This document shows positions 21,256 through 63,950 of a DNA stretch of 64,000 bases, in pieces (the stretch's first letter is position 1; the number at the start of each line of letters is the position of its first letter). The stretch comes from Parietichytrium sp. I65-24A (Eukaryota > Sar > Bigyra > Thraustochytrida > Thraustochytriidae): NCBI GenBank assembly GCA_012862575.1, contig BLSF01000004.1:682001-746000 (forward strand), read 5' to 3'. The position numbers and the translations under genes were made by a program. The notes beneath the pieces were generated by a model. The model did not search any database. It was not told the DNA's origin and saw nothing but the letters and a program-made list of their open reading frames with translations.

Positions 21256-21506
21256 AGAAGGTAAAGGATATCGACGAGAGAAGCGAAAGAAGAAGGAGAA
21301 GAAGATCACGGCGATTGAGAACATACAGCACGCGGCAAGTCCCAACGAGTTCACTCGACGACCACGACCGTCGAGAAGCTGAATTGGTTTGCAAGCTCAG
21401 AGGCACAACTTCTTCTCATTGTTGACTTGCCGGCGAGTTGTGCATGCTCGCACGGAAAGGGCTGGGCAGCGGAGGGACGGGCCGTGGCAAGCAAGCAAGC
21501 TGTGAA
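20135..21506. other. Divergent intergenic region
   Basis: This lies between the starts of the CFAP97-IQ and formin genes. It has imperfect TATCAGCATC/TATCAC units at about 20450-20495 and a GAA repeat at about 21219-21260; both create spurious low-complexity open frames on both strands. An in-frame ATG for the formin at 21444 falls inside this interval and could be the true start. Confidence 0.45.
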
Positions 21507-24500
21507 ATGGCGGACGCATCGATGGAAGAGCGGCCGCCAGACGATGAGTTGGATAGGATGTACAGACGGCTGCTGGAGGAGCTGAATATACCGGAAAGCA
21601 AGCGAGGAAGCATGATGGCACAGCCCATGCACATGAAGTGGAAACTGCTCTCCAAACACCAGCGGTACGTTCGAGTACAGTCATCGTCGTATGGAAGCTA
21701 CGGCACCGCGGCCAGATGCGTCGCTGCGCTGGACAAGATGCTCCTGGAGGTGGACTCCGTTTCAGAGGCAAACGTGATGGATCTCCGCGTGGAGATGCGA
21801 AGCGAACCAGAGTGGACACAGGTATTTTTAGAGCTTGGGGGCTTGCACAAGCTCGTGAGCTTGCTTGATGCTGCGCAGTTGCGGAAGGAGATTCGGATGC
21901 AGACGGACTTGATCGAATGCCTCTGCATGCTTCTTCAGGCTAGCGAGACTACTCTCAGAGTACTCCTCAACGATGCCGACGCTATTACGATACTTGCAAG
22001 TTGCCTTCCGGCTGTAAATCGAGACACGGCGAAATTGGCCTGCGCTGCAATGCAGGCACTTGATAGTATTGCAAAAACATCTGTGGCCAGTCACAGCCGC
22101 GTCTTGTTAGCCCTTGAGGTGTATCGGGTAGAAAAAAACGAAGCCATGAGATTCGCGACCATTGCACAGTACTTGACCTGGGAGCATGACAGCAATATGA
22201 GCCTGCTCCTGAAGGTGCGCGCTCTAAGCCTCGTCAATTCTATTATCAGCGGAGCAAGTAACATTGAAGATCGCGTTGCTCTCCGAGCCGACTTTTGCCA
22301 CCTGGGAGTTTTACGTGTGCTGGATGACTTGGATGGCCTCTTTACACTTTTTGCAGACGAAGAGGAGATGAGAGGCGATCTTGCGCAAGTGTTCGAGTGC
22401 GTGCAAACATTCCGAACTTTGGCAGCAGCGGACAACGGGAAGTTACTTGATGAAGCGCCAAGCACAGGAAGTTGGCTCTGTGACGAGCACGTGCTTTTTG
22501 AGAAAGTCCATCAAAGCGCCAAAAGCGCGGGAACTACAAGAGAGCTCACAGCCATTTTGCACGCTCTATTAGTGATTCCAACAGCACCAAGTATGGCGTC
22601 GTCTCTTTGGTGTCTTCTTGCAGAAACAAGTCAGCGAATCGTCGCTACCCCGGAGGCGACGCAGATGTCTTTTCGCGAGGTGGAACAGAATTTCTTGAGC
22701 AGAGAAGCAAAGCACGAAACGCAGCAGATGAACGAGCGAAAAATAGTCGAGCTTGAGCGCGAGCTCAGCGATGCCAAAGACGACATCAAGAGTCTTGAGG
22801 AGCAGCTCAAAGTTGCACAGGAGCACTTGTCGGCCCCACCGAAACAAGAGCAGCAACAACAGCAGCAGCAGCAGCAGAAGACTCAGGAGAAACAACCTTC
22901 CAAGTTTGGAAAATACTTGGCCATGCTATCGAAGGGTCTTCCGGAAGGAGCCGTGCAGAATGCGTTAGTACGAGATGGGGTGCCGGAGGAAGATCAGAAC
23001 GAGTTCCTCTCGCTATTGCGGAATCCTCAGTCGCCCGTAAAACTGGAACCGCCCAGCGACCCAAAACTGCAAAAGTACGTCAACATGCTGAATCATGGTC
23101 TACCGATTGGAGCTGTGCAAAATGCCATGCTTCGAGACGGCATTGACGAGGCGGATCAGAAAACATTTATTAGAACACAGGCCGCAAAACACTCGGGGAC
23201 TCCCGCGAATGGCGACCCCGCACTCGATACAGAGGAAGAAGAGTCCAAAGAGAGGGACGAAGATGACTCTAGTGTCCGATCGGCCCGGCAAGATCCAAAG
23301 TTTGAAAAGTACGTAAAGATGCTGGCTGCTGGACTTCCAGAGGCAGTAGTGGAAAATGCCATGGTTCGGGACGGGTTGCACACTAATGACCGGGATGCAT
23401 TCTTCGGCAAAGGAGCGTCCTTTGGCGATTCCCGAAATGTAAAACAAGCTCCAAGCGCAGCATTACCTTCGCCACCGCCGAAGGTTCCACCAAAGACAAA
23501 GGCAGAGCAACGAGTGGCAATGAAGCCTTTGTTTTGGAGCCGTCTTGCGGACGAGAGCGTAGATGGCACTATCTGGATGGATTTAGATGACATGAAAATG
23601 GAGCTCCCGCTTGACGAGCTTGAAACTTGCTTTTCGCATCAAACGCCAGACGCTCGGGCAAGCAAGTCATCTGGCAATAATCAGAATGACGAGGATAGAA
23701 AAGCAAAGGGTTCTGGAAAGGCGGAACCAGCCGTGGTGGAGCTGCTGGACCCAAATCGTCAGCGCAATGTCGGGATCACTTTTGCTCGCCTGAAGATGTC
23801 TCCTCAGATGCTAAGGCTGTGCATTCAAGACCTCGACTTGAAACGGCTAGGTGGTACTGATCGCGTGGGGATGCTCACAAATCTAGTTCCCTCATCGGAC
23901 GAAGTGAACCTGGTCAAACAATTCGACGGCGATAAGAGCAAGCTCGGAAAGATTGAACAGCTTTTCATGGAACTTGCAAACGTGGACCACTTGGAGAAGC
24001 GCATCAAAGCGTGGCAAATCTCCCTTCGACTAAAAGCAGCAGCAGCAGAGAGCAGGGAAAATGTTGAAGTATTTATCAAGGCGTGTGAGGAAGTGGACAC
24101 GTCAAACGCGTTTCGCCAACTCCTTCGGGCAGTGCTGGAAGTAGGAAATTACCTGAACGGTTCAACTGCCCGAGGTGGGGCATATGGCTTCAAGTTAGAC
24201 TTACTCTCCAAGCTGGAGACTGTCCGCTCATCAGACAATAAGACCAATTTGCTGCACTTCATTGTCCGAGAAATGGCAGAGAAGCAGTATCCGGGTATGT
24301 TGCGCCTCCCAAAAGATCTCGAGCATGCCTCTCAAGCAGCCCACATATCTCTCTCGGGACTTTTGCAGGAATGCAAGTCACTTGAGAATGATCTGGGATT
24401 TGTCTCTGGACTAGTTAAGAGTTTGGAAGGGGAGGATTCGGCCACAGTTTCAAAGCTTGAAGGTTTTCTTCAAGACGCTGGAAAGACAATGGTTCACCTA

Positions 24501-24797
24501 CGGAAGGCTATGGACTCGGCTCAAACCAAGTATTTAGCTCTGCTCGACAAGCTAGCAGTTGGTGACGAAGAAGCCAAAAAGGACTCTGAGGGTTTCTTCA
24601 AGTTGTTGGATGACCTGGTCTCCTCGTTCAAGCGTGAGCTTTCCCCTGGAACCACGCGAAAACGAACCACTGCGCTTCTGATATCGAAGCCTAAACTCAA
24701 AGCTTCCGCAGTCGCCAAGCCAAAGATATCCGGTCCGTCCGTTCTCGACGGAATCCGAAACCACAAAGGCCTCCGGAGCACTCGCCGAAACACGTAA
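21507..24797 (+). CDS. Diaphanous-type formin (GBD/FH3-FH2) with three CCDC53-like motifs
   Basis: I chose the ATG at 21507 (MADASMEERPPDDELDRMYR, preceded by GAA and followed by G), giving 1096 residues; an in-frame ATG at 21444 would add 21. Residues about 10-380 resemble the Rho-GTPase-binding/FH3 armadillo region. A coiled coil and a polyglutamine run (9 Gln) follow. Three copies of a KYxxMLxxGLPxGAVxNAMxRDG motif begin near residues 468, 522 and 599, resembling the CCDC53 (WASH complex subunit 3) motif seen in protist formins. FH1 is reduced to LPSPPPKVPPK. FH2 begins at KPLFWSRLADE (about 673) and contains the lasso/knob landmarks and VLEVGNYLNGSTARGGAYGF. FH2 domains nucleate and elongate unbranched actin filaments. 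With so little polyproline, profilin-actin delivery may be weak or come from a partner. Confidence 0.92.
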   Translation: MADASMEERPPDDELDRMYRRLLEELNIPESKRGSMMAQPMHMKWKLLSKHQRYVRVQSSSYGSYGTAARCVAALDKMLLEVDSVSEANVMDLRVEMRSEPEWTQVFLELGGLHKLVSLLDAAQLRKEIRMQTDLIECLCMLLQASETTLRVLLNDADAITILASCLPAVNRDTAKLACAAMQALDSIAKTSVASHSRVLLALEVYRVEKNEAMRFATIAQYLTWEHDSNMSLLLKVRALSLVNSIISGASNIEDRVALRADFCHLGVLRVLDDLDGLFTLFADEEEMRGDLAQVFECVQTFRTLAAADNGKLLDEAPSTGSWLCDEHVLFEKVHQSAKSAGTTRELTAILHALLVIPTAPSMASSLWCLLAETSQRIVATPEATQMSFREVEQNFLSREAKHETQQMNERKIVELERELSDAKDDIKSLEEQLKVAQEHLSAPPKQEQQQQQQQQQKTQEKQPSKFGKYLAMLSKGLPEGAVQNALVRDGVPEEDQNEFLSLLRNPQSPVKLEPPSDPKLQKYVNMLNHGLPIGAVQNAMLRDGIDEADQKTFIRTQAAKHSGTPANGDPALDTEEEESKERDEDDSSVRSARQDPKFEKYVKMLAAGLPEAVVENAMVRDGLHTNDRDAFFGKGASFGDSRNVKQAPSAALPSPPPKVPPKTKAEQRVAMKPLFWSRLADESVDGTIWMDLDDMKMELPLDELETCFSHQTPDARASKSSGNNQNDEDRKAKGSGKAEPAVVELLDPNRQRNVGITFARLKMSPQMLRLCIQDLDLKRLGGTDRVGMLTNLVPSSDEVNLVKQFDGDKSKLGKIEQLFMELANVDHLEKRIKAWQISLRLKAAAAESRENVEVFIKACEEVDTSNAFRQLLRAVLEVGNYLNGSTARGGAYGFKLDLLSKLETVRSSDNKTNLLHFIVREMAEKQYPGMLRLPKDLEHASQAAHISLSGLLQECKSLENDLGFVSGLVKSLEGEDSATVSKLEGFLQDAGKTMVHLRKAMDSAQTKYLALLDKLAVGDEEAKKDSEGFFKLLDDLVSSFKRELSPGTTRKRTTALLISKPKLKASAVAKPKISGPSVLDGIRNHKGLRSTRRNT

Positions 24798-31300: not shown

Positions 31301-31476
31301 ATTTGCAAAGAAGAGATTGTAATTTGCAATTCAGAGTATCAGAGATTCAGGAATTCAGGAATTCAGGTCCTCGGTCGGCGGCTGGCTAGCTAGAATTTAG
31401 AAAGCAAGCAATCAAGCAGGGGAAGGTTGGTCGGAGCGCGGGTGCCAGTGCTGCCAAGGCCAGGTTTGTGGGCAGG
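28326..31476. other. Divergent 3.1-kb intergenic region
   Basis: It lies between the starts of the BAR-RhoGAP and the giant surface-protein genes. Near 28367-28427 a unit of about 34 bases containing CTTCGTCTGCTTCTCCTCTC is repeated in tandem. TCAAGAT units (about 29314-29346) and CTAT units (about 30068-30083) are simple repeats. No open frame has a family signature. The A/T-rich stretch at 30520-30650 and the DNA after it presumably hold the promoter of the giant gene. Confidence 0.45.
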
Positions 31477-34400
31477 ATGGTGAAAATCACCCCAGATGAG
31501 ACGGTAGTGGCGGCGAAAGTGCATGAAGTCGGGAAGGAGAATAGCAATGTGGAAGAATTTCTTTCCAAGGTCGACGCCGTCTCGCGAGCTGTGCGCAGAC
31601 TGTCTTCAGCCCAGAGGCAGTTTAGAGATCAGCTGCTGAAGGGATCAACGCCCAGGATTGAGGCGAGGAAACATGTGATAGAAAAGTGGACCCACAAGCA
31701 CCTGGTGTCGCAGCTTGGACTCATCGCTGTCCTCAGCGTGGTGCTGATGGTTTGTGCAAAGATTTCATGGGATGCCGCGGTGGAAGACAAGCTTGGCACG
31801 GGAGTGGGCAAGCTCATGTTCACTTGCGGCTTGCTTATGCTTGTGTCATCTCTGTTAGGAGCGTATGGCGCGCGACGCGTCAGCGCGGACATTCTGCAAG
31901 ATGATGACGGTCTGAAAACTCCCGGACAAAACCTCCTGGAGATTTACTTCCACGTTTCATTTTGCTTTCTGATGGGCGTCTTTCCGGTGTCTCTCGCTTT
32001 GTTAGCTGACTCAAACTCGTTCCTCAACGATGGTACGTACGGGGCGACAGAGACGTACGCTAAAGCTGCTGCAGCTCTTGGTCTAGTGATCTCGATTTTG
32101 ACACTCATCTCGCTTCGGTCAACGGTGATGATCGTCACTTTGTACGAGATCTCCAATAGCTTTCTTGAATGCTTTTCCGCTGTATTGGTCAGTCTGGGAA
32201 TAGCCGGTTTATTCGTGGGCTTCTCTATGCTAGAGTATGGTCAATTTTTAGATGACGACTCGATCAACAACGCTGCGCTGTATTTCTTACGATTTTTTGT
32301 CGTCGTAAACGCAGCTCTGGTTGCGCTCAGTCTTCTAGGGTTTGGCGCATCATTCATCGAGAATACGACGCTTCTCAAGATTCACGCGGGGCTCATGGTA
32401 ATCCTCTTCTTGAGCGTTTTTATTCTCTTTGTTGGCATGGTCAGTGTGGACGTTGACTCTGCAATCAGCAACAGTTGCCGCAGTATTATGCAGATTATGT
32501 CGGAGGAGTGGTGGAGTGAAACTGTGAAATGCCAAAAGTACGGCGGGGCGGTCACAGGCGCGCAAGTTGAAGTTTACAATACCACGCTGGAAAAGTACGA
32601 ATATTCAACCTACGGCGTGGGATCTTCAGCGAGATGCCCGAACATTGAGCAAGTTGCCTTTGCATGGGAGTTGTATTTAGAGGACTCTGCTGCCAGCACC
32701 AACTTGACTACCTCCAATTACGAGGGGTGTTTGAACGAGAGTTGTTGCCAGGTCCTTGTCAATCAGATCAGTCAGCTACGCTCGCTCGTTATCATCGCAC
32801 TCATTCTACTTGCAATCTGCATCGTAATATCAATTGCCGCCGACCGTTGGCTTATTTCGGAGTGTAAAATTTCACAGTCGGAAAAGGTAAAGGTTGTGAG
32901 CTGGACTCGCGCCAAAGTGCTCTTGATAGGACTGACAGTGGTGGTTCTCGCTGCGTTTGTATCGCTTGTGCTCTTCTTTAATATCAGCAGCACGAGAATC
33001 TCCCCGCTTGATGTCGTCTCGCAGCTCGACAAGGATACCGGGCGATCGGATATCGAAAGCAGTACCGAACCGATCCATCTTTGCACCAACCTAGTCAAGG
33101 ACGGGAACGAAACCGACGTCGATTGTGGAGGCTCGGCTAGCCTGGGAGGTTGCACCACGCGTTGTGGTATTGACGCAAGGTGTCTACTGGACTCAGATTG
33201 CCAGTCTGGCCACTGCGATAGCGATACGCTTCTCTGTCGTAAGGAAAAGTTTTGGGAGCAGTGCACCAATGGAGTCCGGGATGGTGCAGAGACTGGCATT
33301 GATTGCGGAGGCGGCGAGTGCTTGTCCTTTGCGCTGGCCGTGCAGGAGGGAACCGTGGATGAGGATGTGCCAGAAGACGTCCTGGAGCGTCTCTTTCTCT
33401 GCGGTCTTCGCCAACCATGCTCACTTGACTCGGATTGCCTCTCCAATTACTGCGACAACAATGTTTGCTCAAGCTGCTATGACGGTGTCAAGAACACCGA
33501 CGAAGGGGACGTGGACTGCGGCTCGCAACGCTGTATGGACTACCTTCGGCTTTACCCCAACTCGAACATGTCCAAATTTCCAAACGCGGACGAGGAGGGC
33601 CTTTGCCTCGATGGTAGGGCTTGTTCGTCGCCGGAGCAATGCTCGAGTGGTGTGTGTCACGATGGGATCTGCTCTTCCTGCTCAAATGATGAAATTGATG
33701 GAGATGAAACCGACGTTGACTGCGGAGGCCGTGTTTGCCAGCGGAGATGCACAGTGGGACAAAAATGTCAACAAATGTACGATTGTATCACCCAAAGATG
33801 CTCATCAAATTGCGCTTCGGGATTTTGTGGACTTGGCGTTTGTGAGACCGTCTATGACGTTTCCGACACGGACGATCCTTTGCTAGCTGAAATGTTTGCC
33901 AACTCTTTTACATTCACAAGCATAGCAACGGAGTGTTCGGATGGCAAGGTCAGCGTTCACGAGACCGACTTGGATTGCGGTGGCTCGCTCTGCCCAACAA
34001 TCGGCAAGACATGTGACGACGGACTCACCTGCTCAGCAAACTCAGACTGCACATCAAACCTTTGCTATAACGCCACATGTGTTTCTTGCGAGAACTCGAT
34101 TCTGGATGGCTCCGAGACCGACGTAGACTGCGGTGGTTCCTTGTGTGGCAAGCGGTGCAGTGTTGGCGCAACCTGCAAAGTGAACTCCGATTGCAAATCG
34201 AGCTACTTTTGCTGGACGCAAGACGATATCGACAGCGCGTTGGACTTGGCAAACAAGTATAATGTGTCCCATCTGCTTCCAGATATCTTTATACCAGCCG
34301 TGAACACTTGTCAAAGCATCAGCCAGGTACAGGTTGACTCGCAAGACGCGTTGCTTGAGGACAACGCCACACTGTTTGAGATTTACTCTGAGCTGCATTT

Positions 34401-37400
34401 GCCATTTCCCGTTGAGCTAGTTGACGCGGAGGATGATGCGGTTTCCACAGACAATGACACTGTGACGCGTAGGAGGAGCCTTGACATATGGACCGAGGCG
34501 AGAGAGAAACGCAGACGATTGACGTCGACCTCTGTCATCGGCGCTTACACCACGAACTACTTTGAACCATGGATGGTTCTATGTGATCTTCAAACTGTGT
34601 TCACTGTAGAAGATGGCAATAAGTTCATCCTTGTCGCAGATAACGGGGCGACTGTCGAGCTCAGCAACGACGACAAGACCATTGCAGTAGGAAGGACCTG
34701 GGGATCGTATGCTCCTGAGATTCGAATACAGCCCACCAAGTGCAACCCAAACCTCGAAGAAGGAATTACAATCACGAGGAAAGACACTCCGTCGTGTTCC
34801 TTTTTCACGATGCTGTACGGATCCAATGTCGCTGTGGCCGTAGTCCAAGTTGCGCGCTCAACGACACTGTACGGAAGAATACTCGATCAAGACGGGGACC
34901 CCATTGTCGGAGCGTTTGTGCGAGTCTGGTCAGTTCGCAGAGGGACTTGTGACAATTTGTCAACCCTCCCTGATGGATGCGATGGTACCTGCAACGAAAT
35001 GTCCAATGTGTACAGCTCATGCGTCGCCGAGCCGTACAGTGACTGCTGCACCTGGGCTGAAACGGAGAATGTTCGCGTGTCGGATTGCTTGGGCAGCTCG
35101 GTAACCACCACAGAGGTCGTGCAAAGTACTGACGAGTCGGGTCGCTACTACTTTATGTTTCCCGAGTTGACACCAATTTTAGCGGATCAACAGTACCGTA
35201 TAGAGTTCGGAGCTACTCACGACGAATACGTTACAAGCCAAGGGAATATCCTCCGAGTGACACCTGGCATACTCACCGCTCTTCCGGATATTTACATGGT
35301 AAAGGCTACACTTGAGGCGTGTGGATGTTCTTCATACGAATCATCCGACATTGAGGAGGACGAGTACCTTTGCAAAAATCCGGTGACCGACTATTGCATT
35401 GCGAGAGAGAGTTCCTGCGCAAATACGTTCGAATACATTGCGTGTGACAACACCATCACTCCCCTTCCAACTAATGCTCCCACGTCCACCCCAACGCAAT
35501 CCCCATCCAAATCCCCGTCAACTTCACCGACTTTCTCTCCAACTGTTTCTCCCACCTCGGCTCCAACGCATGCTCCATCTTCACAGCCCACCGTGTCCCC
35601 GACGAACGCACCGACACCGCCAACCAATGCCCCAACAAGGAACCCAACTCTTTCACCGTCGGCCTCACCAACAGCTAATCCAACCGTGGATCCAACAGAT
35701 GCTCCTACTGTCGCACCCACAAAAGCACCAACCAACAATCCAACAGTGTCACCAACTGACACGCCAACAGCCACACCGTCAGATGGTCCGACTACTTCAC
35801 CAACTCCGGAGCCAACAAGCTCTCCAACTTTAGCGCCGAGTGATGGCCCAACCGAGAACCCAACAAGTGCCCCGACAAATGCTCCGACGGATGCACCGAC
35901 GAATGCACCAACAAGTGCTCCTACGGACGAACCAACAAGTGCGCCTACAAGTTCGCCAACAAGTGCTCCAACGGATGAACCAACGAGCGCACCAACAGAA
36001 TCCCCGACGGACGCACCAACGAAATCCCCGACGGACGCACCAACAAGTGCACCAACGAACGCTCCAACAAAATCCCCGACCGACGCACCAACGAAATCCC
36101 CGACAGACGCACCAACGAAATCCCCGACGGACGCACCAACAAGTGCACCAACGAACGCTCCAACAAAATCCCCGACGGACGCACCAACGAAATCCCCGAC
36201 GGACGCACCAACGAACGCACCAACAAGTTCCCCGACCGACGCACCAACGAATGCACCAACAAGTGCGCCAACCAACGCACCAACCAACGCACCAACCGAC
36301 GCTCCAACCCTTGCACCATCGGATTCGCCGACAAGTGCGCCGACCAGCGCTCCGACCCTTGCACCATCGGATTCGCCGACCAACACACCGACATCATCTC
36401 CGACAGATGGTCCAACTCATCTACCAACTGTGGCTCCAACGATGGCTCCGACTCTCGCGCCTTCAAGCGCACCGACAAGTCAACCTACAGTGGCTCCGAC
36501 GACGTCTCCATCTGATACGCCTACGAAGAACCCGACTCACGCGCCAACTCAGGAACCAACCGCGTCTCCTACAAGTGCTCCTTCTCTTAGCCCAACGCTG
36601 GCACCTACGAAAGCCCCCACACAATATCCATCCTTCAGCCCCACGGTATTCCGGGAGCCTTTTGCAAGTTGGTGTTTTGACAGCATGAGCTTCAGCTGGT
36701 TGCAAGACACTTTTGACGGGGCGCAGTCGGTCCTGAGTGGAATATGTTCATCCGTCACCGGCGAAGCCGATTACGCGAGCATTTCCTCATTCGAGGCCAA
36801 TTGGACCGAGACGTTTGAGATCGAAGTGAGTTTCGAACTCAACGAGACATGTCAAATGAAGTATGCTGAAGTGCAGGAGTCTCTACGACTTGCGAGGTGC
36901 GGAGCTGGGTCGTATGATGCGTGCAAGAGCGTGAGCATGTTTCTTCTGGAAGACAATCTGTTCTCTGTGACCATCGAGCTCCAGGTGGCCAGTCTGGGCG
37001 ATGCTGTTCGGCTTGACAGTAGGGCAACTGCCCCGATGTACGTCATTGCCAACAACAAGTTGGTGTCCGAGTTGAAGGAAACAAAGCTAGCTTGCTGGGA
37101 CAAGTTTGCAAGCGTGGAAGGACCTTCAAATGTGGATGTACGAGGAACTTACTGCATGGATATTACTCTGGAAAGCACGGACGACTCTAAGTACGATGAG
37201 CACACTGAGGGTATCCAGCAGGAGCTTGCTGGCCTTGACTTGACAGACGAAGAATTCTTTCAAGATCTTCCGTCCGCACAGAATGGAACGCTTGAAGTGT
37301 GTCCAGCATCGAGGGATTGCTCTGGCAATGGCAAATGCTGCTCCGTCGAAAACCAGGACAGCATAGGCTGCGAAACTATTGGTCAGTGTTACTGCAACAG

Positions 37401-40400
37401 CGGTTACACAGGATATGACTGCAGCATGGTGCCAACCAAGGCTCCCACAAAGGCTCCGACGTATAGATGCGTCCCAACAGACCTCGTCGGAGGCGTGAGT
37501 GGTGCAAGTGAGATCGTGTGGGCCATGTGCTCTGCCGAGGGCGCCTGCGAAGAAGAAACCTTGTTTTGCGAGTATGACGCTCCCGACGACCCATACTCGG
37601 AGAGTGGATGTACAGATGGAGAGTGGCTAACCGTGTTCTTGCAGAGCGATTGCCGTGTGTACAAGAACCTTGGCCGGGCGACTATAAATGCGCTATTCAG
37701 GCTACGCCCTGTCTGGAGGTATGAGATACAGGATGAGCCATATCTGTACTACAAATTGCTGGATAGCACCATACCTGATGATTTTGACGCATTCGAGATG
37801 ATGCTTGAGAACTGGTCCTCCCGAAGCGGCTCCCATCTTATCAACACAAATTTTGCATTATATTCCAACGGTACGTCCCTGGCTGCAGACACCGATCGCT
37901 GGCAGTACTCCAATTACGACGACGACGTTGGATTCCCACGTGATGCTCGTCCGCTCCTCAGCCTCCCTGCGAGTGACTACCAGTACAAATGGGCAGTGTC
38001 TTATTGCGGAGTCTTGGGGCGAAAGATCTCTCCAGTGTCCAAGTTCTCTTTCAGCTTGTGTGTTCCAGAAAATGAATCAGTTAGTGACAGTGAGACTAGT
38101 TCAGAAGTAGCGGCTGCATCGACGACCTACAATCTCCAGGTTCGTGTTGTCGATGCAGCCACTGGCTTCGGAGTGGAGGCGTCGGTTAGCCTGTACCGTG
38201 GCACAGTTCCGGCGTGGGAGGAGGTCACGCCACTGAAGACGGTCAGTGCCAATTTAGAGTACGACACTGTTAGCAACGCACGAGCAGGAGCGTCTACACT
38301 TGAGGATACCCTGTTCAGCTGCGTATCGGGCGACAGCGAGACTTCCACAGATGCGACAATAATCGGTTCCAGCTACGTTGACTTTGCGGATCTGAGTGTA
38401 GGAACCTATACGATTGTCGTGTCCTATGAAAGTGGCCTTGCGACCGAAGAAAGCGTTCAGTACAACAGCGCTTTCCAGACCAAGATGACGACTGTTATTC
38501 TCTCCAACGCCGACGCTGAAGTTGTGGTCGAGGTGGCAAGAGAAGTTGACGAAGAGGAACTACTGTTGGTGTTTACGACATCGTCGGCGGATCTCGACAT
38601 GGTGGTCAATTTTGTATCCACGGAGGATGGCGAAAGTTGCCGGATCAGCAGCAAAATGCTCTCTGACGGTGCTTGCACATGCAGTGGAGCTCAGTTGCTG
38701 AGGGCGGATTCGCAGCTGCAATCTAACGGGAAGCTAACGCAGGTGATTGCGTTCAAGAACTTTCGGTCCACCATTTACCAGGTGTATATTGCACGGAATA
38801 AGCCAGTGCCAGCATCTTCTTACAAAAAGCACCGCGACGACGGGTTTTGCGGGCCGCTCTACCCCTTGGAAAGCGGTGAGCCTGCCCAGTGTCCTCCGGT
38901 CGAGGTGATGTGGGGCGATGGTACCCGAGACTACCGGCCGTGCTGTCATCTTTTGTCAGGCATATGTGGGGCGACAAGCGTCCAGTGCACTTCTCGATAC
39001 TCGATTGACTACAGCAGGTTCTTGGTTGACGACTGGATGAATGAGACGAGAACAGATGGCAAATGCAATATTCCTGACACTAGTATGCTTTCTGACGCCG
39101 GGACATTGGCGACTTGTCCAGAGTCCAAACCCTGCTGCGGGCCAAACGCCGTATGCGGAAATACGAGTTACCATTGCAGCTCTGAGCGATCCATAGACTA
39201 TACTGATTTTTATCAGCTTGCGGAAGCAAAAGCAAGTGGAGTCGCCAGCTCAAAGCTATGGACGTACGGGATCACCCCAATGGAAGAGTCAAACTCGGAA
39301 ATTACAATTTACAGCTCTGACGGTGAGTCCAAATCCTTTGGCCTACCAGACGCGACGGATACCATAAACTACTTTGACGGCCATCAGTACTCCGAGGGGA
39401 TCGCGACCTCCTCAAGCACGTATATGCGCTCATTCTGTATCGATGGTACTGCTGCCTCACCACAAGTGCACGAGTACTCCGCACCTCGATTCTTTCAGTG
39501 GCAAGCGGAGCTTTTGGATCACTCCCAGGGCTGCCCAGCAACTGGCAGTTGCAGTTATTTGCGCTTAAGCGACCTCCGCGCCGAGTTTACGCGCTCCGAC
39601 GGGGATGTGACGCCGAACTTGAACGGAGTCTACATTAAGCGAGTGTATCCCTCAAGCGGGTACAAAGCGTACGCAGGAATGCACACGTCCACCGACTCCA
39701 CCTGTCGAGCGACTATTACGCATCCCACAACTGGTGCAAGTGAATGGAGAGTGGTTGGTTGGGGTGATGAAGAGATGGACGAAAAGGAATGCATTGCGGT
39801 CTGCGAGGAATCCGAGGACTGTGAATTTGTGTACTACCTGCGGCATCTGAAAAGTAACGGGTACTATGAGTCCATCTGCAGCTACCACAAAAATATCGAG
39901 AATTGTGGCGGATTGCAAATTTACAATAGCGACGAAAACGTACGCATAGTCTACGAGAAACGCTCAAGTAGCAAATCGGGAATGCTTTGGTACACTCAAT
40001 TGGACACTATATTTAAAGAGCCTGGAAGTCAGGTTCATCTTTACCGCGACGAGTCCACTTTGGTCTGGTACTTTGACCACGATCTTGTCCCTGGGAATGG
40101 GTATTTGGCGAAGGCGGCTAGCACCACTTCCTCAGAGCTGCCTCCAGAAGCTGGTTGGCGCTATGTCACGGATATGTCCTCGGAAACGACGGTCCAACAC
40201 ACCACGCCAATATCTGTGCTCACTTCCACGGACGAATGCTACCTTGGCGGGTCATACCCAACATTGGAAAGCACTGCTGAAGAGCTGGGATGTGTTTGCT
40301 CCTCGACAACCATAAAAAACTGTTTTGACAGCAGTTGCGAAGCCTTTCCTATCCGAGTAGAGGACACGAGTATATGTCTCGAAGCTAACCCGTACCGACG

Positions 40401-40815
40401 AAGCCTTATGAGCAACTTGTGCGACACGGAAGCTCTCGCGCAATATTTTATCTACAACAAGGCGTTACAGCATTTAGAGGCACGGGTTCCAATCGATGAC
40501 TCGGATCTAAGCCAAGGGTTTGAGAGATATGTTGTGTATGGGACTACATACACGATTCGGAGCACCTCTTACACGGAGCTTGGCTTGGAGTTGATCGAGT
40601 CCGCAGATCAGGAAGTGGACGATGAAGTTGTCTTTGACTTCACTTCCGAGGGCTACATCTGTGTGTACATCGGAACGAGCCCGGCTGTGAACTCGTACGC
40701 AGATGCTGCGACGGACCAGAGGACCTGCTTGAGCTTAACTGCGGCACCGGGTGATCGTCCGCTGGTTCTTGATTCGGATTACAAGGATTCCTGGTCCACG
40801 TTCGCAGTCGTGTGA
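31477..40815 (+). CDS. Giant multipass surface protein with Cys-rich DGxETDVDCGG repeats and a Pro-Thr repeat domain
   Basis: This is a single uninterrupted frame of 3112 residues from the first ATG at 31477 (MVKITPDETVVAAKVHEVGK). About nine membrane helices occupy residues 75-520 (for example LGLIAVLSVVLMVCA and VLLIGLTVVVLAAFVSLVLF). Residues about 535-920 hold six Cys-rich units built around DGxETDVDCGG. A basic stretch (REKRRRLT) may be a processing site. A carboxypeptidase-regulatory-like beta domain (LYGRILDQDGDPIVGAFVRV) follows. Residues about 1329-1720 are tetrapeptide repeats of the PTxA/PTxS type. Beyond are an EGF-like unit (QCYCNSGYTGYDCS), two Cys-rich units resembling hevein-like chitin-binding modules (CGPLYPLESGEPAQCPP; CCGPNAVCGNTSYHC) and a PAN/apple-like segment near 39700-39960. 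An adhesive or cell-wall-contacting role is inferred; the whole architecture matches no family I know. Confidence 0.85.
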   Translation: MVKITPDETVVAAKVHEVGKENSNVEEFLSKVDAVSRAVRRLSSAQRQFRDQLLKGSTPRIEARKHVIEKWTHKHLVSQLGLIAVLSVVLMVCAKISWDAAVEDKLGTGVGKLMFTCGLLMLVSSLLGAYGARRVSADILQDDDGLKTPGQNLLEIYFHVSFCFLMGVFPVSLALLADSNSFLNDGTYGATETYAKAAAALGLVISILTLISLRSTVMIVTLYEISNSFLECFSAVLVSLGIAGLFVGFSMLEYGQFLDDDSINNAALYFLRFFVVVNAALVALSLLGFGASFIENTTLLKIHAGLMVILFLSVFILFVGMVSVDVDSAISNSCRSIMQIMSEEWWSETVKCQKYGGAVTGAQVEVYNTTLEKYEYSTYGVGSSARCPNIEQVAFAWELYLEDSAASTNLTTSNYEGCLNESCCQVLVNQISQLRSLVIIALILLAICIVISIAADRWLISECKISQSEKVKVVSWTRAKVLLIGLTVVVLAAFVSLVLFFNISSTRISPLDVVSQLDKDTGRSDIESSTEPIHLCTNLVKDGNETDVDCGGSASLGGCTTRCGIDARCLLDSDCQSGHCDSDTLLCRKEKFWEQCTNGVRDGAETGIDCGGGECLSFALAVQEGTVDEDVPEDVLERLFLCGLRQPCSLDSDCLSNYCDNNVCSSCYDGVKNTDEGDVDCGSQRCMDYLRLYPNSNMSKFPNADEEGLCLDGRACSSPEQCSSGVCHDGICSSCSNDEIDGDETDVDCGGRVCQRRCTVGQKCQQMYDCITQRCSSNCASGFCGLGVCETVYDVSDTDDPLLAEMFANSFTFTSIATECSDGKVSVHETDLDCGGSLCPTIGKTCDDGLTCSANSDCTSNLCYNATCVSCENSILDGSETDVDCGGSLCGKRCSVGATCKVNSDCKSSYFCWTQDDIDSALDLANKYNVSHLLPDIFIPAVNTCQSISQVQVDSQDALLEDNATLFEIYSELHLPFPVELVDAEDDAVSTDNDTVTRRRSLDIWTEAREKRRRLTSTSVIGAYTTNYFEPWMVLCDLQTVFTVEDGNKFILVADNGATVELSNDDKTIAVGRTWGSYAPEIRIQPTKCNPNLEEGITITRKDTPSCSFFTMLYGSNVAVAVVQVARSTTLYGRILDQDGDPIVGAFVRVWSVRRGTCDNLSTLPDGCDGTCNEMSNVYSSCVAEPYSDCCTWAETENVRVSDCLGSSVTTTEVVQSTDESGRYYFMFPELTPILADQQYRIEFGATHDEYVTSQGNILRVTPGILTALPDIYMVKATLEACGCSSYESSDIEEDEYLCKNPVTDYCIARESSCANTFEYIACDNTITPLPTNAPTSTPTQSPSKSPSTSPTFSPTVSPTSAPTHAPSSQPTVSPTNAPTPPTNAPTRNPTLSPSASPTANPTVDPTDAPTVAPTKAPTNNPTVSPTDTPTATPSDGPTTSPTPEPTSSPTLAPSDGPTENPTSAPTNAPTDAPTNAPTSAPTDEPTSAPTSSPTSAPTDEPTSAPTESPTDAPTKSPTDAPTSAPTNAPTKSPTDAPTKSPTDAPTKSPTDAPTSAPTNAPTKSPTDAPTKSPTDAPTNAPTSSPTDAPTNAPTSAPTNAPTNAPTDAPTLAPSDSPTSAPTSAPTLAPSDSPTNTPTSSPTDGPTHLPTVAPTMAPTLAPSSAPTSQPTVAPTTSPSDTPTKNPTHAPTQEPTASPTSAPSLSPTLAPTKAPTQYPSFSPTVFREPFASWCFDSMSFSWLQDTFDGAQSVLSGICSSVTGEADYASISSFEANWTETFEIEVSFELNETCQMKYAEVQESLRLARCGAGSYDACKSVSMFLLEDNLFSVTIELQVASLGDAVRLDSRATAPMYVIANNKLVSELKETKLACWDKFASVEGPSNVDVRGTYCMDITLESTDDSKYDEHTEGIQQELAGLDLTDEEFFQDLPSAQNGTLEVCPASRDCSGNGKCCSVENQDSIGCETIGQCYCNSGYTGYDCSMVPTKAPTKAPTYRCVPTDLVGGVSGASEIVWAMCSAEGACEEETLFCEYDAPDDPYSESGCTDGEWLTVFLQSDCRVYKNLGRATINALFRLRPVWRYEIQDEPYLYYKLLDSTIPDDFDAFEMMLENWSSRSGSHLINTNFALYSNGTSLAADTDRWQYSNYDDDVGFPRDARPLLSLPASDYQYKWAVSYCGVLGRKISPVSKFSFSLCVPENESVSDSETSSEVAAASTTYNLQVRVVDAATGFGVEASVSLYRGTVPAWEEVTPLKTVSANLEYDTVSNARAGASTLEDTLFSCVSGDSETSTDATIIGSSYVDFADLSVGTYTIVVSYESGLATEESVQYNSAFQTKMTTVILSNADAEVVVEVAREVDEEELLLVFTTSSADLDMVVNFVSTEDGESCRISSKMLSDGACTCSGAQLLRADSQLQSNGKLTQVIAFKNFRSTIYQVYIARNKPVPASSYKKHRDDGFCGPLYPLESGEPAQCPPVEVMWGDGTRDYRPCCHLLSGICGATSVQCTSRYSIDYSRFLVDDWMNETRTDGKCNIPDTSMLSDAGTLATCPESKPCCGPNAVCGNTSYHCSSERSIDYTDFYQLAEAKASGVASSKLWTYGITPMEESNSEITIYSSDGESKSFGLPDATDTINYFDGHQYSEGIATSSSTYMRSFCIDGTAASPQVHEYSAPRFFQWQAELLDHSQGCPATGSCSYLRLSDLRAEFTRSDGDVTPNLNGVYIKRVYPSSGYKAYAGMHTSTDSTCRATITHPTTGASEWRVVGWGDEEMDEKECIAVCEESEDCEFVYYLRHLKSNGYYESICSYHKNIENCGGLQIYNSDENVRIVYEKRSSSKSGMLWYTQLDTIFKEPGSQVHLYRDESTLVWYFDHDLVPGNGYLAKAASTTSSELPPEAGWRYVTDMSSETTVQHTTPISVLTSTDECYLGGSYPTLESTAEELGCVCSSTTIKNCFDSSCEAFPIRVEDTSICLEANPYRRSLMSNLCDTEALAQYFIYNKALQHLEARVPIDDSDLSQGFERYVVYGTTYTIRSTSYTELGLELIESADQEVDDEVVFDFTSEGYICVYIGTSPAVNSYADAATDQRTCLSLTAAPGDRPLVLDSDYKDSWSTFAVV
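35461..36640 (+). repeat. Pro-Thr tetrapeptide-repeat region (12-base period)
   Basis: About 98 four-residue units of the form xPTx are encoded by a 12-base repeat. Within it a 96-base higher-order unit is nearly perfect: the block starting ACGGACGCACCAACAAGTGC occurs at 36031 and again at 36127. The antisense strand is also open for 331 codons because of the period (VGALVGA-type peptide), which is a by-product and not a gene. Thr/Pro-rich stalks of this kind are usually heavily O-glycosylated and extended. Confidence 0.9.
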
Positions 40816-44812: not shown

Positions 44813-46693
44813 TCAACACATAGGTTCGTACATGTCGAGGAAGCCATGTTGTTCGATGACCTTTCGAAAGAATTTCATCATAGCGACTGATTCTGAAGAT
44901 CTTGTCTGGGAGGCCCGCTGCTTTAGCTTTGTAATAGATTCCTCCAATAATTGCTCCAGAATATTCAGGCGATGGTCAAGCTTTTGGCTTTGAGCGACTT
45001 CGGCAACCATCAACTCGTTAACAGAGCGCTCTTGTCTCAAAGTGTTTGCAATGGTTCGGAGCGTTCGGTTGTAGTATTCACAGAGATTTAGCTGAGGAGA
45101 GTTTGGCGGAGCTTTAAGTATTCTAATTTCGCCCCCAGATCGCTCCAGTGCACATTGTAGCCGGTCATAGTGGGGAAGCTCTCGCAACAGCTTGGTCGTT
45201 TGGTTCTTCGGACCATGCTCTGGAGCGTTGCCGATGACAATTATCACGTTGCGATGCGAGATTTGTTCCAAACGGCCATAAAGCTCCACCAGGACAGTGT
45301 CAAGAAAATCCTGAAATGTCTCCTTGTTCCATGCGGCCTTGATGACTGGCTTGGAAAGGTTACCATCAATTTTGAACTTGCTAACCTTCTTTGGTTGGTA
45401 GATCTTGCTCACAAGAAGGCCGTAGTCTGGGTGAACTGCCATCGCCACCTGCGTCCTGCACGCTAGATTCCCGACAGGCGGGACCTTCACTACTGCGCGC
45501 TTCCCTGTCGGCGCACGCCCATAAGTGCGCTTCATGGTCATGTAGAATGGCATCTCATCCAAAAAGACAAAGAAAGTCGAAGAGCTCATCAGCGCTTCCT
45601 CCACAGCATTTGCATAAGCTAGACGCCTTGCTTTCGCGGACTCAGAATTCACGCTCGTTTTCTCCGGTACAACGTGCTTCTTGGTGTGCACCATGCCGTT
45701 TAACCAGTTTGCGACAGTTTGAATGCTCTTGATTTCGCGCTTATGGTACTTTTTCACAACACTTTCAGGAAGTTTTGGTAAGATTTCATCAATCGGTGTC
45801 GGCGTCAAATGCTGTCGCTTCTCAGGTTTGGATCTATTTGGAGATAAATCGATCTCTAGCTCCAGGTCTCCATCACTTTGTTCATGGCGATCCAGGGATT
45901 CAAGGTGATCACCGTCGCCATGCTCTATAGTCGTCGCAGCCTCAAGCAAACCAGGGTCATGCCCCATATCCAGCGGTGGTGGCAACGGCACGCCAGTATC
46001 TTTGAGAATTCTCTTGAGAGTTTCCACGTTGAGGTATCGCCTTAGCTGATCAAGCGTCAAAGTTGGATTCATATGTAGCCACATCTCAAGATATTCCCTG
46101 TGGTACTCGTCCTGCTTTTGGGGGTGCTTCTGTTTCTTGTCTTCGTCAGAGTTTGAGCTCGATTCAGAATCCGAGTGGCGCCAGCGATACATCATATTGT
46201 CCGCCGTTTTGGCAGGCATATGAAGCATCGCAGCAACGCGAAGCCTCTCTTTGCGCCCGCCACGATACTCTGCTTCGATAAGCATCTGTTTCTCTTTTTT
46301 TGTGTAACTGCGACGGTGCAATTTTCTCTTTTTTCGCTTCTTTGGAACTGATGATTCCGTGTCTGAGGTTGTTGCTGGAGCATCACTCAGGAGTTGGCCA
46401 TCATCACCTGGATTTTGAACTCGATCCGGTTGCTCTATTGATCTAGATTTGGCTTTTTCTCCTTCCGATTCGGAATCCGAACTCAGAGGCTCCAGCAACT
46501 CATTCAACAACTTCGAGTTCCACTCTTGCTGCTCTCGACCACTCCTTGAGTTTGAAGGGGTTTCCGGACTGGATTGCCTCCTGTTCGCCCCCGAACCTCC
46601 TCTTTCGTCATCATGATTCTTTTCTGTCTGGGACATCAACAACGCCTCTCCAGCAGCGTCGTCATGGGCAACATCCTGACTGAGCTTCCACAT
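44813..46693 (-). mobile_element. IS630/Tc1-like DDE transposase with altered catalytic triad (DNA transposon remnant or domesticated)
   Basis: This is an intact 626-residue frame from the ATG at 46693 (MWKLSQDVAHDDA); no earlier ATG exists before an upstream stop. The acidic, Ser-rich N terminus carries a basic patch (VPKKRKKRKLHRRSYTKKEK) and a helix-turn-helix-like segment (RLRVAAMLHMPAKTADNMMY). The DDE core is recognisable: first Asp in FFVFLDEMPF, then TYGRAPTGKRAVVKVPP, and the final acidic residue in PPNSPQLNLCEYYNRTL. At the second catalytic position the family has DNAxxH, but here the sequence is IVIGNAPEHG (codon GGC), so the second Asp is Gly. Transposition by this copy should be lost. 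An uninterrupted frame despite this suggests either recent inactivation or use by the host. Terminal inverted repeats were not found by eye. Confidence 0.8.
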
Positions 46694-47700
46694 CTCCTCT
46701 AGCCTTCTCCGTTTCAACGCCGCGCTACAAGTACAAGTGTGTTCTGGATGTCATAAAAAGGATTGTTTGGATTCAGAATAAGGGTAAACTGGAAATAACG
46801 AATTCAAACTGCTGAGTCTGACTATGTCTAAATAATCATATCCCTTGTGAAATTGGAAATTGTCCCTTAAAATGGATATGAAATTGGAAATTGTCCCTTA
46901 AAACCAATGGAAACGTATGGAAACAGCTCGGAAAAAAGAGCAGAATCAGAATGCAGAAGAAATCCTTTGGTATGCGCATCAATCATCTATGTCGCGATAC
47001 AGCAGAAGCATACTTGGCGTGGTGTCGGGCTTCAGGCTGCTCGAGCTTCGCATGCAATCTATTTTCGAAATCAGTGTAGATACGAGATAGTTCTTTTTCC
47101 GAGACTCCTTTGGAGTGATCATTGCACAGGTGCAGAGGCTCGCCAATGTTTTGTTTCTGTGGTGATTTTTATCGTCGTTCGCGCATCAACTCTCGATCGG
47201 CCCGGGCCCATTGCCGTGTGTCCCAAGTGCAAGAATGGTGAAAATGAGAATTGATTATAATTTTGTTTTTTAAAGTTGCCGTTTGCATTCATCGCTGCCA
47301 GTGTCCGAGCACGTCGGAAACACTCATTCATATCGAAACTCGGTACATTTCAGTCTTGACCCGAGCCCGGTGCTTGAATAGAAAGGAGAAAGAGAAAAGA
47401 GGGGAAAGGAAAGGAAATATCGAACACGAGATTCCGAGAAAGATAGGAAAACTAGCAAGACAGTATCACGCCCTAGAAGAGAGGCAAGCGTCGCAGCGGT
47501 CATCAGAGCCACGATAGAAGAAAAGCAGGTTCCGACACACTGGCGTTCAGCAACCAGGAAAAGGTCTTTAAAAAGCAAGATCAGATGGCTCGCGCCTCCT
47601 CGAGATTCAAATCAAAACAGGAGCTTGGAATCTGTCCTGAGCGCTGCACTAAAAGCCGTTCAAGACCCCACGACTGGACCTGAATCAGAAGATGAACTCT
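46694..47700. other. Intergenic region with a short tandem repeat
   Basis: TGAAATTGGAAATTGTCCC followed by TTAAAA occurs twice in tandem, at about 46849 and 46879. No gene is recognised. The 2.15-kb duplication begins inside this interval at 47101. Confidence 0.45.
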
Positions 47701-60719: not shown

Positions 60720-63700
60720 ATGGCTGATTCTGGCATGGAGTGGAGACGGCGTCGCGGACAGGAATCCAGTGGCAATGCCATGGGAGGCACTAGGGGTGGA
60801 CACCAACAAGCCTCATGGGGAAGGGGCGGCTCGCGATCTGGAGGACGCGGCGGTAGGTTCGCGCATCAGTCGCAGCCTCGGAGCAATCCCGCATCTGGAC
60901 CGCAACCACGACAACAACAACATCAGCAGCAGCAGCAACAGTCCAACTTTCACCAACGCCAACGGCCGGGAAACCACCATCGTCAAGGGCCTCAATTTGC
61001 GAATCAGCAGCACAGACAGGGCGAGGATGTAATGACCCTGCATGACTGGGGCGCGCAAGCTGGGGCGGTACAAGAAGGCCAGGAATTCCGGAACTGCCAG
61101 GTCAAGCAGGTAGTGGTTGGTCGAGGTACTCTTGTTTCGCTGACGAAGGACTTGGTCGGGCTAATTCCGGCCATGGAGTTTACTGCGCAGGCAACCAAAG
61201 GCAAGCTTGATGCCGTATTTGTGAAGCGTGTGCACGAGAGCGGTTTAGCGGAAGTGGAGTGGAAGATGCCTGAGCATCCTGGTCCAAATGCTCCACTTCT
61301 AATCCTGGACCTCAACGGCGTTCTTCTCGCGAGGGCACCGTACCGTGACAGGGATGCCAATGTCAAATTCATAAAGCGGAGATACTGCGACGACTTCATT
61401 CGCTTCTGCTTTGAAAACTTTAACGTTGGGGTCTGGTCATGTGGAATGCGAAAAAGAATGGAGATGGAGCTCTTTGAGCCTTACATGGATCGCATTCTGT
61501 TCCAATGGGATCAGGAAAATAGCACCAACCTTTGGCCAAGGACTTCGGTTGTATCCAAGGACAAGCCGCTGTTTCTCAAAGACATAAACAAAGTTTGGGA
61601 AAGCGTGCCAGGGTCCTTCGGGCTAGAGAACACCCTGCTCTTGGACAACCATTCGGAGAAATTTGAGCGCAACTCTCTTTCCTGCTGCATTTTGGTCCCG
61701 GAATTCACCAAAACTTCTCAGAATGATGATGTACTGGCTCCGAGCGGCGAGCTATGGCGCGGATTGGAAAAGTTTGTTGCCGCAAACAGCGTCGAAGAAC
61801 GAGCAACCGCTGTGCAGTCCATGCAGTCCCATCTTTGGCGGGAAAAGTTAGCCACACTCTTCACCTCTAGTGAAGTGATGGCAAGAAATTGTCCCGAGCG
61901 AGACGTTGCGTTCTATATGCGACACCGGGATATTCCCGGTCCGCGCGCTCAACCATTTCGCAGAGCAGCATTGAACCTCATTCTCAAGAGCCACACCAGC
62001 TGGGCGCTCTGCGAGAAATCTAACGGCGTGCGAAGCATGCTTATCGCTTTCCCTGGTGAAGAATCCTGCTTTCTCGTCAATCGCGCTTGGCAATTTTCAG
62101 CCGCGGGTAAGAATGTGTTATCAACCCAGCACCCGGTGCTACTCGATGGTGAAGTCGTAGTCAATGGTGAAAAGAAGATCTTTCTGGTGTTTGATGTCAT
62201 ATGGCTAGATGGCACAGATGTGGGGGCAACAGCAGATGTGCACGCCCGTCTCAAAGCCTGGGAGGATTTTGCGAAAACGCTTTCCCCTCAAGTGCTACTT
62301 GACTCAAACCTTGTCGAAGGCACACCCGTCGTGACTTTGGGCGACATCCATTTGGTCACCAAGAAATTGTTCCCAGTTGCTGCAATTAAGAGCCTCAAAG
62401 AAGCAGTCCACAAACACACCTATGACGTCGTCGGGGAAGTCCCTTGCGATGGACTGGTATTCACTCCCGTCTACAGCAGCTATTACGAATACACGGTCAA
62501 AAAATTCAAACCGTTGGACGAACTCACTGTGGACTTCAAACTATTTGTTTCCGACCTGCGACCTGGCGCAGAGTCCGTTCCGTTGTACTTAACCGTGTAT
62601 GCTCGCCAACCTAGGGAACGCAATAACGTGTTGGACGTTCAGACGGGTCGCGGCGTGGTGAGCGAGGAACTTCAGGCGGAAATTAAGGCCAAGTCGGCAC
62701 TGGAGGCCATCGTGGAGTGTAGTTTTGATACGAGCACAGGTATCTGGGTTGCGCAGCGTGTGCGCCATGATAAGGTCAAAGATAATGGCCTCAACAATGG
62801 CTGGAGTGTGCTTGAATCGATTGCCGAGCATGTGACTGTCGAAAAGCTTGTGGATCTCGTATCCGAGGGGGTTGAAGCCAACCCAGAGCCACCGCGATGG
62901 TCACCAATTGAACAAGATGGAGACCATGTCCGCGATATCGCAAAGCATTACAATGAACGACAAGAGCACCGTAATCTGAATTACAATATAGTGGACATCA
63001 GAATCGAGAACCTCAGGAAGCTGAACAATTGGAGCAAAGCAGTCTTGATTCAGGAGGCTTGCCTCGGCATAACAGAATTTAAAGGTCGCATTCCTCTCTT
63101 TAGCTCTCAGCCCGAAATTCCGAACGAACTGCACGTCAAGGGTCGAGGGCCAAACCTTGCCGGATCGAAGAAGCATCAACCGAAAAGGCCCGTCCCTCTC
63201 AAAGTGCTCGACTTGGCGTGTGGCCGTGGAGGCGACATGAACAAGTGGATGGCGAACGCCGAGCTCCTGCAATATGTGGGCGTAGACATTGCATCCAAAG
63301 CTCTGGAAGAAGCCCGGTGCCGAGTTGCTGACAAAAGGCACTTCGATTTCATCGAGTTCGATGTTACCGACTCCAATCTGCTGGAGGACGAGGCCGTTGC
63401 TGAAGCAAATTTCGACATCGTCAGTTGCCAGTTTGCATTTCACTACTTTTGCGTTTCTGAGGAGCGGTGCCGAAATTTCTTCAAAATCTGCTCCACGACT
63501 CTTAAACAAGTTGACTCGGAGGATCCATATCAGCCGCTGCTTCTCATCTCTACGACAGACGAAGAAATGCTGTTGCGGCGTTTGCCGAAATTCTCGAATT
63601 CAGTCTGCCACGTGAGCTCAAAGAACCCAAACATCTCAGACAACTCCGAGAGCGATTTGGACTTTGGCAACCCGTACTCGTTCTCGCTAGGGGACGCCGT

Positions 63701-63950
63701 GGTGAACTGTGAAGAGTATCTAGTGCCTGTCAGGCGAGTCGCGGAGATAGCCGCAGAGCATGGATTTGATCTAGCCTTGTCGCAGAATCTTGCCTCCTAC
63801 GTGGTTGACAAAATCGCCTCGTATACGCCCATGCTGCATTCCATGGGGGTGATCGGTCGAAAGGCTGAGGGCCGTGCGCCCATTTCGCAGGATGAGTGGG
63901 AGGCCATTCAGCTCTATCGCATGCTCGTGTTTCGTCGTTCGCCTAAATAA
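60720..63950 (+). CDS. Fused capping protein: S1-like + FCP1/SCP-type HAD + mRNA guanylyltransferase + cap guanine-N7 methyltransferase
   Basis: This is one intronless frame of 1076 residues from the ATG at 60720. Residues 1-100 are Arg/Gly- and Gln-rich. Residues about 121-182 look like an S1 RNA-binding fold ([20 protein letters not shown]). At 190-350 is an FCP1/SCP-type HAD domain: [13 protein letters not shown] (D197, N199), [19 protein letters not shown] and [12 protein letters not shown]. From about 395 to 765 is a guanylyltransferase: motif I EKSNGVR (K433), [14 protein letters not shown], IIIa [37 protein letters not shown] and [16 protein letters not shown]. From about 775 is the N7-methyltransferase: [13 protein letters not shown], the SAM motif [15 protein letters not shown] (829 on), [13 protein letters not shown] and EEYLVPV. 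It should add and methylate the mRNA cap in the nucleus. No tunnel-type or HCxxxxxR-type RNA triphosphatase domain is visible. Confidence 0.93.

Follow-up and report, generated by a model that had tools for sequence, protein, structure and literature searches.

The window analyzed here is a 64,000-nucleotide stretch of the Parietichytrium sp. I65-24A genome (contig C4, positions 682001-746000). One open frame on its + strand (60720..63950) starts with ATG and encodes 1076 amino acids plus a stop. The protein contains (left to right) a probable S1-like part, a HAD domain, an mRNA guanylyltransferase, and a cap guanine-N7 methyltransferase. A capping fusion fronted by a HAD is real, conserved, and hitherto undescribed within the literature searched; fused capping enzymes as such are already known.

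The N-terminal tail (residues 1-100, 60720..61019) is rich in RG and Q and, from its sequence, is probably disordered. It is followed by the probable S1-like OB part (residues about 116-185, 61065..61274), which was overlooked in an earlier note on this DNA, and by the HAD/NIF domain (residues 190-352, 61287..61775). The guanylyltransferase (residues 404-715, 61929..62864) is composed of nucleotidyltransferase and OB domains (PF01331 and PF03919), and the methyltransferase (residues 733-1076, 62916..63947) has the PF03291 fold with an S-adenosylmethionine motif. NIF, mRNA_cap_enzyme, mRNA_cap_C, and mRNA_G-N7_MeTrfase all match in the same frame above the curated Pfam cut-offs. The earlier note had read the HAD, guanylyltransferase, and methyltransferase in one frame from the letters alone; Pfam assigns its three regions to the NIF, capping-enzyme, and N7-methyltransferase families, with domains, coordinates, and order as described, and the order is the same in a relative from a QPX transcriptome (P0002).

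Other comparisons gave an NCBIfam match to HAD_IIID1 (under the cut-off, E 1.5e-5) and a single PHROGs match, to a methyltransferase family. The matches ranked highest by Foldseek for the whole predicted model are vaccinia enzymes. A basic stretch, KKHQPKR, is visible by eye ahead of the methyltransferase. Pfam at E up to 1 lists no TTM or Cys-phosphatase triphosphatase domain in the protein, a test that is weak for TTM, and no kinase or P-loop family.

The fold of the HAD in the predicted model is closest to the solved structures of SCP2 and SCP1, which makes it NIF-type. Motif I (61308..61325) reads DLNGVL, instead of the DxDx(T/V) of NIF/FCP1-SCP C-terminal domain (CTD) phosphatases. In the alignment of relatives, D197 is invariant and the next catalytic site is Asn (N199 in place of the usual Asp) in all 20 rows that reach the motif. 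K282, K287, D309, N310, and H311 do not vary across the 21 rows; position 240 holds Ser in 17 of them and Thr in four. The motif IV region of the window protein (residues 309-314, 61644..61661) is DNHSEK, and the pattern DNHxEK is present in 22 of 22 relatives with a HAD and a guanylyltransferase.

The HAD is also the most conserved domain of the fusion. Mean pairwise identity is 0.53 for the HAD, 0.36 for each of the two guanylyltransferase parts, and 0.34 for the methyltransferase, and 44 of 156 HAD positions are invariant (13 of the 17 rows of one alignment, first column). A repeat with 15 rows and another alignment gave 0.51 for the HAD and 0.34 for both the guanylyltransferase and the methyltransferase. 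Judged from these alignments, the HAD is under strong constraint while lacking the hallmark of protein-phosphatase HADs, and it does not resemble a relic in decay.

A HAD profile compared with solved proteins placed UBLCP1 nearest, with SCPs at E 0.3-0.9, and phmmer with the lone HAD stretch returned no HAD protein among its four solved-structure matches. FCP1 carries a BRCT domain (PMC4256932, excerpt); Pfam at E up to 1 lists none in the window protein. In the HAD tree, the fused HADs share a clade with DLNG proteins that stand alone (five named proteins of plants, three unnamed proteins, and L016 and L017 of the same genome), and the DLNG rows are split from 10 other NIF proteins of the genome with branch support of 99/98. 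The positions of L016, L017, and P0025 inside this clade are unsure, with long branches. The label FCP1/SCP-type, given to the HAD before, is borne out by fold; it does not fit motif I or the lack of a BRCT domain in the Pfam list, and it fits less well by sequence, where UBLCP1 and the DLNG clade are nearest.

The free-standing DLNG proteins share the clade and differ from the fused ones in having DDS at motif IV (for example, DDSPYK) and no capping domains in their Pfam lists; P0025 falls outside this pattern. L016 (contig C21) and L017 (contig C33) are kin of the plant proteins, with DDSPEK and DDSFYK, respectively, at motif IV.

The S1-like part was not covered by the fold-match lists, which are filled by larger domains. 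Two predicted models agree on five strands at residues 122-181. A profile of this region from seven relatives, with the window copy left out, matched 18 solved chains, all of them S1-domain proteins, with a best E of 0.0018 (weak). P0018 has a sub-threshold Pfam match to S1 (E 0.032). Residues about 116-185 are therefore described here as probable S1-like OB sequence. RG-rich tails like that of the window protein are visible by eye in P0002, P0004, P0016, P0017, P0018, and P0029.

The predicted guanylyltransferase model matches human RNGTT, the yeast enzyme, and other solved capping enzymes, and both the covalent nucleotidyltransferase fold and the OB domain are present. K433, R438, E478, D577, K595, K597, R682, D684, and K685 are invariant in 21 of 21 rows. 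Motif I, with the catalytic Lys433, is KSNGVR (residues 433-438, 62016..62033). GMP (guanosine monophosphate) transfer and N7 methylation by the protein can be inferred with fair confidence.

Relatives with both a HAD and a guanylyltransferase number 22 (P0001-P0010, P0013-P0020, and P0026-P0029), of which 15 add a methyltransferase in the same order (P0001-P0006, P0013-P0018, and P0027-P0029). They come from three protein searches with overlapping yields of 12, 19, and 23 proteins; two protein searches scored 7997 and 7999 candidates sharing most words, and relatives may be missed. Two were left out of the trees and alignment: P0019, which nearly duplicates P0018 and, by eye, ends out of frame, and P0020, a short relative of P0016. 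P0026 (a partial record) and P0028 (HAD partial, motif I absent) were kept wherever letters exist, and the C-terminus of P0002 is cut.

A source could be traced for four of the 22 relatives, and all four are stramenopiles. P0015 is from Nannochloropsis oceanica (Eustigmatophyceae), P0029 from Chrysophaeum taylorii (Pelagophyceae), and P0026 from Chrysoparadoxa australica (Ochrophyta). The fourth source is QPX (Mucochytrium quahogii), a member of the Labyrinthulomycetes. P0002 is from MMETSP0098, a QPX strain (PMC6011583, excerpt). The earlier note was aware of no enzyme described with an FCP1-like HAD at its front. No description of a HAD joined to a capping enzyme was found in listings and abstract openings, a coverage that leaves most subscription papers outside, and the near hits proved unrelated, so that this statement stands as far as descriptions go; the fusion itself belongs to a conserved family whose members are already found in public protein sets, where they go by hypothetical or automatically assigned names.

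The window protein clusters with P0001-P0003, the QPX protein included, in all three domain trees (100/97, 100/100, and 100/100), so that the window is most likely labyrinthulomycete DNA. In the HAD tree, 21 fused rows lie on one side of a branch (99/98). In the guanylyltransferase tree, the fused rows are separated from four others (97/88), three of which are on long branches. The separation in the methyltransferase tree, from three others, is weaker (77/93; 70% of bootstrap trees). Three subgroups recur in every tree: the window protein with P0001-P0003; P0004, P0013, and P0015; and P0005, P0006, P0014, P0016, P0017, and P0029. Between the three domains, pairwise distances are correlated (r 0.80, 0.83, and 0.93; 0 of 5000 permutations each; 15 of 21 rows). 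Because the domain trees are concordant and the distances correlated, the simplest reading of the sequences is a single old fusion that was passed on as a unit.

P0007-P0010, which look AT-rich, have the front part, a DLNG HAD, and a guanylyltransferase, and are without a methyltransferase. In the guanylyltransferase tree they split off before all other fused rows, with 97/92 for the remaining 17; their branch is long, and the HAD tree leaves them unresolved. Given this branching, the HAD-guanylyltransferase pair may have come first, or these four may have lost the methyltransferase. Another single chain, P0023 from the diatom Stephanodiscus triporus, combines a TTM triphosphatase with a guanylyltransferase. 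A viral origin was considered and rejected for the collection of viral contigs scanned: the whole-family and HAD alignments matched 49 and 67 stretches there by pattern, and none was confirmed as a relative.

The rest of the genome was searched in the 42.5 Mb assembly (172 contigs). A second guanylyltransferase, L004 (contig C7), is free-standing, matches the full Pfam profile at 123 bits, and pairs with a fungal enzyme apart from the fused family (97/95, long branches). A second N7-methyltransferase, L001 (G000:C82:33804-37883, frame 1375-4080, - strand), is about 900 codons in length. Its residues 330-383 have a sub-threshold Pfam match to TTM triphosphatases (18.3 bits vs a cut-off of 24), and its N-terminal part matches solved triphosphatases at E 0.49 at best. 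The front of L001 is probably a TTM triphosphatase, as far as these matches indicate. We know of no such triphosphatase-methyltransferase pairing among described cellular enzymes. The genome search with the mRNA_triPase family gave nothing, with the controls silent too and L001 missed. No third guanylyltransferase or N7-methyltransferase locus was found in the six-frame genome search, which can miss split genes.

Since L004 and L001 make up an ordinary set, the fused protein is a second capping enzyme in this genome, and it is less likely to be the organism's main capping enzyme for RNA polymerase II (Pol II). Two parallel capping sets are described in trypanosomes (PMC11417388, excerpt).

Several known systems resemble the window protein in part. 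Poxvirus, African swine fever virus, and mimivirus enzymes are likewise three-part single chains with the guanylyltransferase ahead of the methyltransferase. Their front domain is a TTM triphosphatase, whereas that of the window protein is a HAD. SCP1/SCP2, FCP1, UBLCP1, and Tim50 share the fold and the HAD motif II-IV residues; the window HAD differs from them in DLNG rather than DxDxT, in DNHxEK at motif IV, and in its fusion to a capping enzyme. In trypanosome TbCgm1, the guanylyltransferase is followed by the N7-methyltransferase, and to our knowledge no HAD or S1 domain has been described in front of them. TbCgm1 belongs to a lineage other than that of the window protein; the two are alike in joining both activities in one cellular protein, with a second capping set encoded in the same genome (PMC11417388, excerpt). 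TbCe1, also part of a second set, is alike in joining a phosphate-handling activity to a guanylyltransferase (same excerpt). It differs in that this activity is an RNA kinase instead of a HAD, and in having its methyltransferase partner, TbCmt1, on a chain of its own.

The explanation favored here, tentatively, is that the protein is a second, largely self-contained stramenopile cap-0 synthase, in which the S1-like and HAD parts handle the RNA 5' end, and that it serves a subset of RNAs. The guanylyltransferase would place GMP on 5'-diphosphate RNA, and the methyltransferase would complete m7GpppRNA. More tentatively, the S1-like part and the HAD may act on the RNA 5' end ahead of guanylylation by binding it or by trimming or checking its phosphates; they would sit in the slot taken by a triphosphatase or kinase in other fused capping enzymes. 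The likely purpose would be the capping or recapping of RNAs outside the reach of the ordinary set, and which RNAs these might be is a guess.

The role of the HAD itself is assigned with low confidence. RNA 5'-end processing or gating is ranked first because of the position of the HAD in the chain, its S1-like neighbor, the lack of another triphosphatase in the protein, and the lesser need of a phosphoanhydride for acid catalysis. A phosphoprotein or CTD role is ranked below it, and a role in docking only is ranked lowest of the three.

Several points weigh against the cap-0 synthase explanation. The Asp of KxDG in guanylyltransferase motif I is Asn (KSNG) in three of 21 rows, the window protein included, which is a weak point of the predicted GMP transfer; KxNG is seen in some related RNA ligases. 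NIF-fold enzymes known so far act chiefly on phosphoproteins. The strongest fold match of the HAD is to SCP1/2. The S1 assignment leans on weak E-values. Standard HAD phosphatases use the second Asp of motif I as general acid-base to activate water (PMC8069645, excerpt); with Asn at this site the activating Asp is gone, and the HAD may hydrolyze any substrate slowly or not at all.

A bolder form of the cap-0 synthase explanation is rather unlikely. It would make the DLNG HAD an RNA 5'-end phosphohydrolase, of a class new to capping besides Cys-phosphatase and TTM enzymes, and the protein a complete one-chain cap-0 pathway run by stramenopiles alongside the ordinary one. The lost general acid would then be offset by the invariant DNHxEK residues, or be needless given a phosphoanhydride leaving group.

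The strongest competitor, itself doubtful and proposed in the earlier note, is coupling to the phosphorylated Pol II CTD or some other phosphoprotein: by binding or dephosphorylating it, the HAD would link capping to the state of the polymerase. The NIF fold agrees with this, and the Asn could serve as a trap. Motif I differs from DxDxT, however, and by sequence profile UBLCP1 comes closest, the SCPs matching only at E 0.3-0.9. SCPs have DNSP at motif IV, where DNHxEK stands here, and the genome encodes a further guanylyltransferase for routine Pol II capping.

The HAD could instead be a catalytically dead structural or docking module, in which case the protein would be an ordinary guanylyltransferase-methyltransferase leaning on the triphosphatase of the other set. 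Tim50 is an example of a NIF fold that can serve in docking, and the second Asp of motif I, replaced by Asn in all 20 rows covering the site, corresponds to D98 of SCP1. A solved structure of the SCP1 mutant D98A exists (title of 3l0y). This too is rather unlikely, as the remaining active-site residues persist in all 21 rows and the HAD is better conserved than both enzymes behind it, which would be unusual for a mere linker.

A cytoplasmic recapping enzyme for decapped mRNAs, like TbCe1 with TbCmt1, would overlap with the favored cap-0 synthase and differ from it in place and substrate. It is suggested by a second set beside the ordinary one, as in trypanosomes (PMC11417388, excerpt), and by the S1-like and RG-rich parts. 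It appears improbable: Pfam lists no kinase family in the protein that would make a diphosphate from 5'-monophosphate RNA, and KKHQPKR before the methyltransferase could be a nuclear targeting signal. An artefact, in which an assembly error or a missed intron fused separate genes, is extremely improbable given the single frame of 1076 codons and the domain order shared by 15 database proteins, of which one comes from the QPX transcriptome.

Accounts of mRNA capping usually give a handful of layouts and a single enzyme set for each genome; the known exception is the trypanosomes. If the favored cap-0 synthase explanation is true, a second capping route would exist in a sizeable lineage of marine protists and algae, at least one of which, Nannochloropsis, is a laboratory alga. 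It raises the questions of whether enzymes of the HAD type can process RNA 5' ends during capping and of which RNAs need a second cap synthase.

Three other features of the window are worth recording. A Diaphanous-type formin (GBD, FH3, and FH2) lies at 21438-24797 on the + strand, with a match to CCDC53 (a WASH subunit) in between. For a 3115-codon open frame at 31468-40815 (+ strand), Pfam at E up to 1e-4 matches nothing but PT disordered repeats. The frame at 44813-46717 (- strand) has a DDE_3 transposase-like match.
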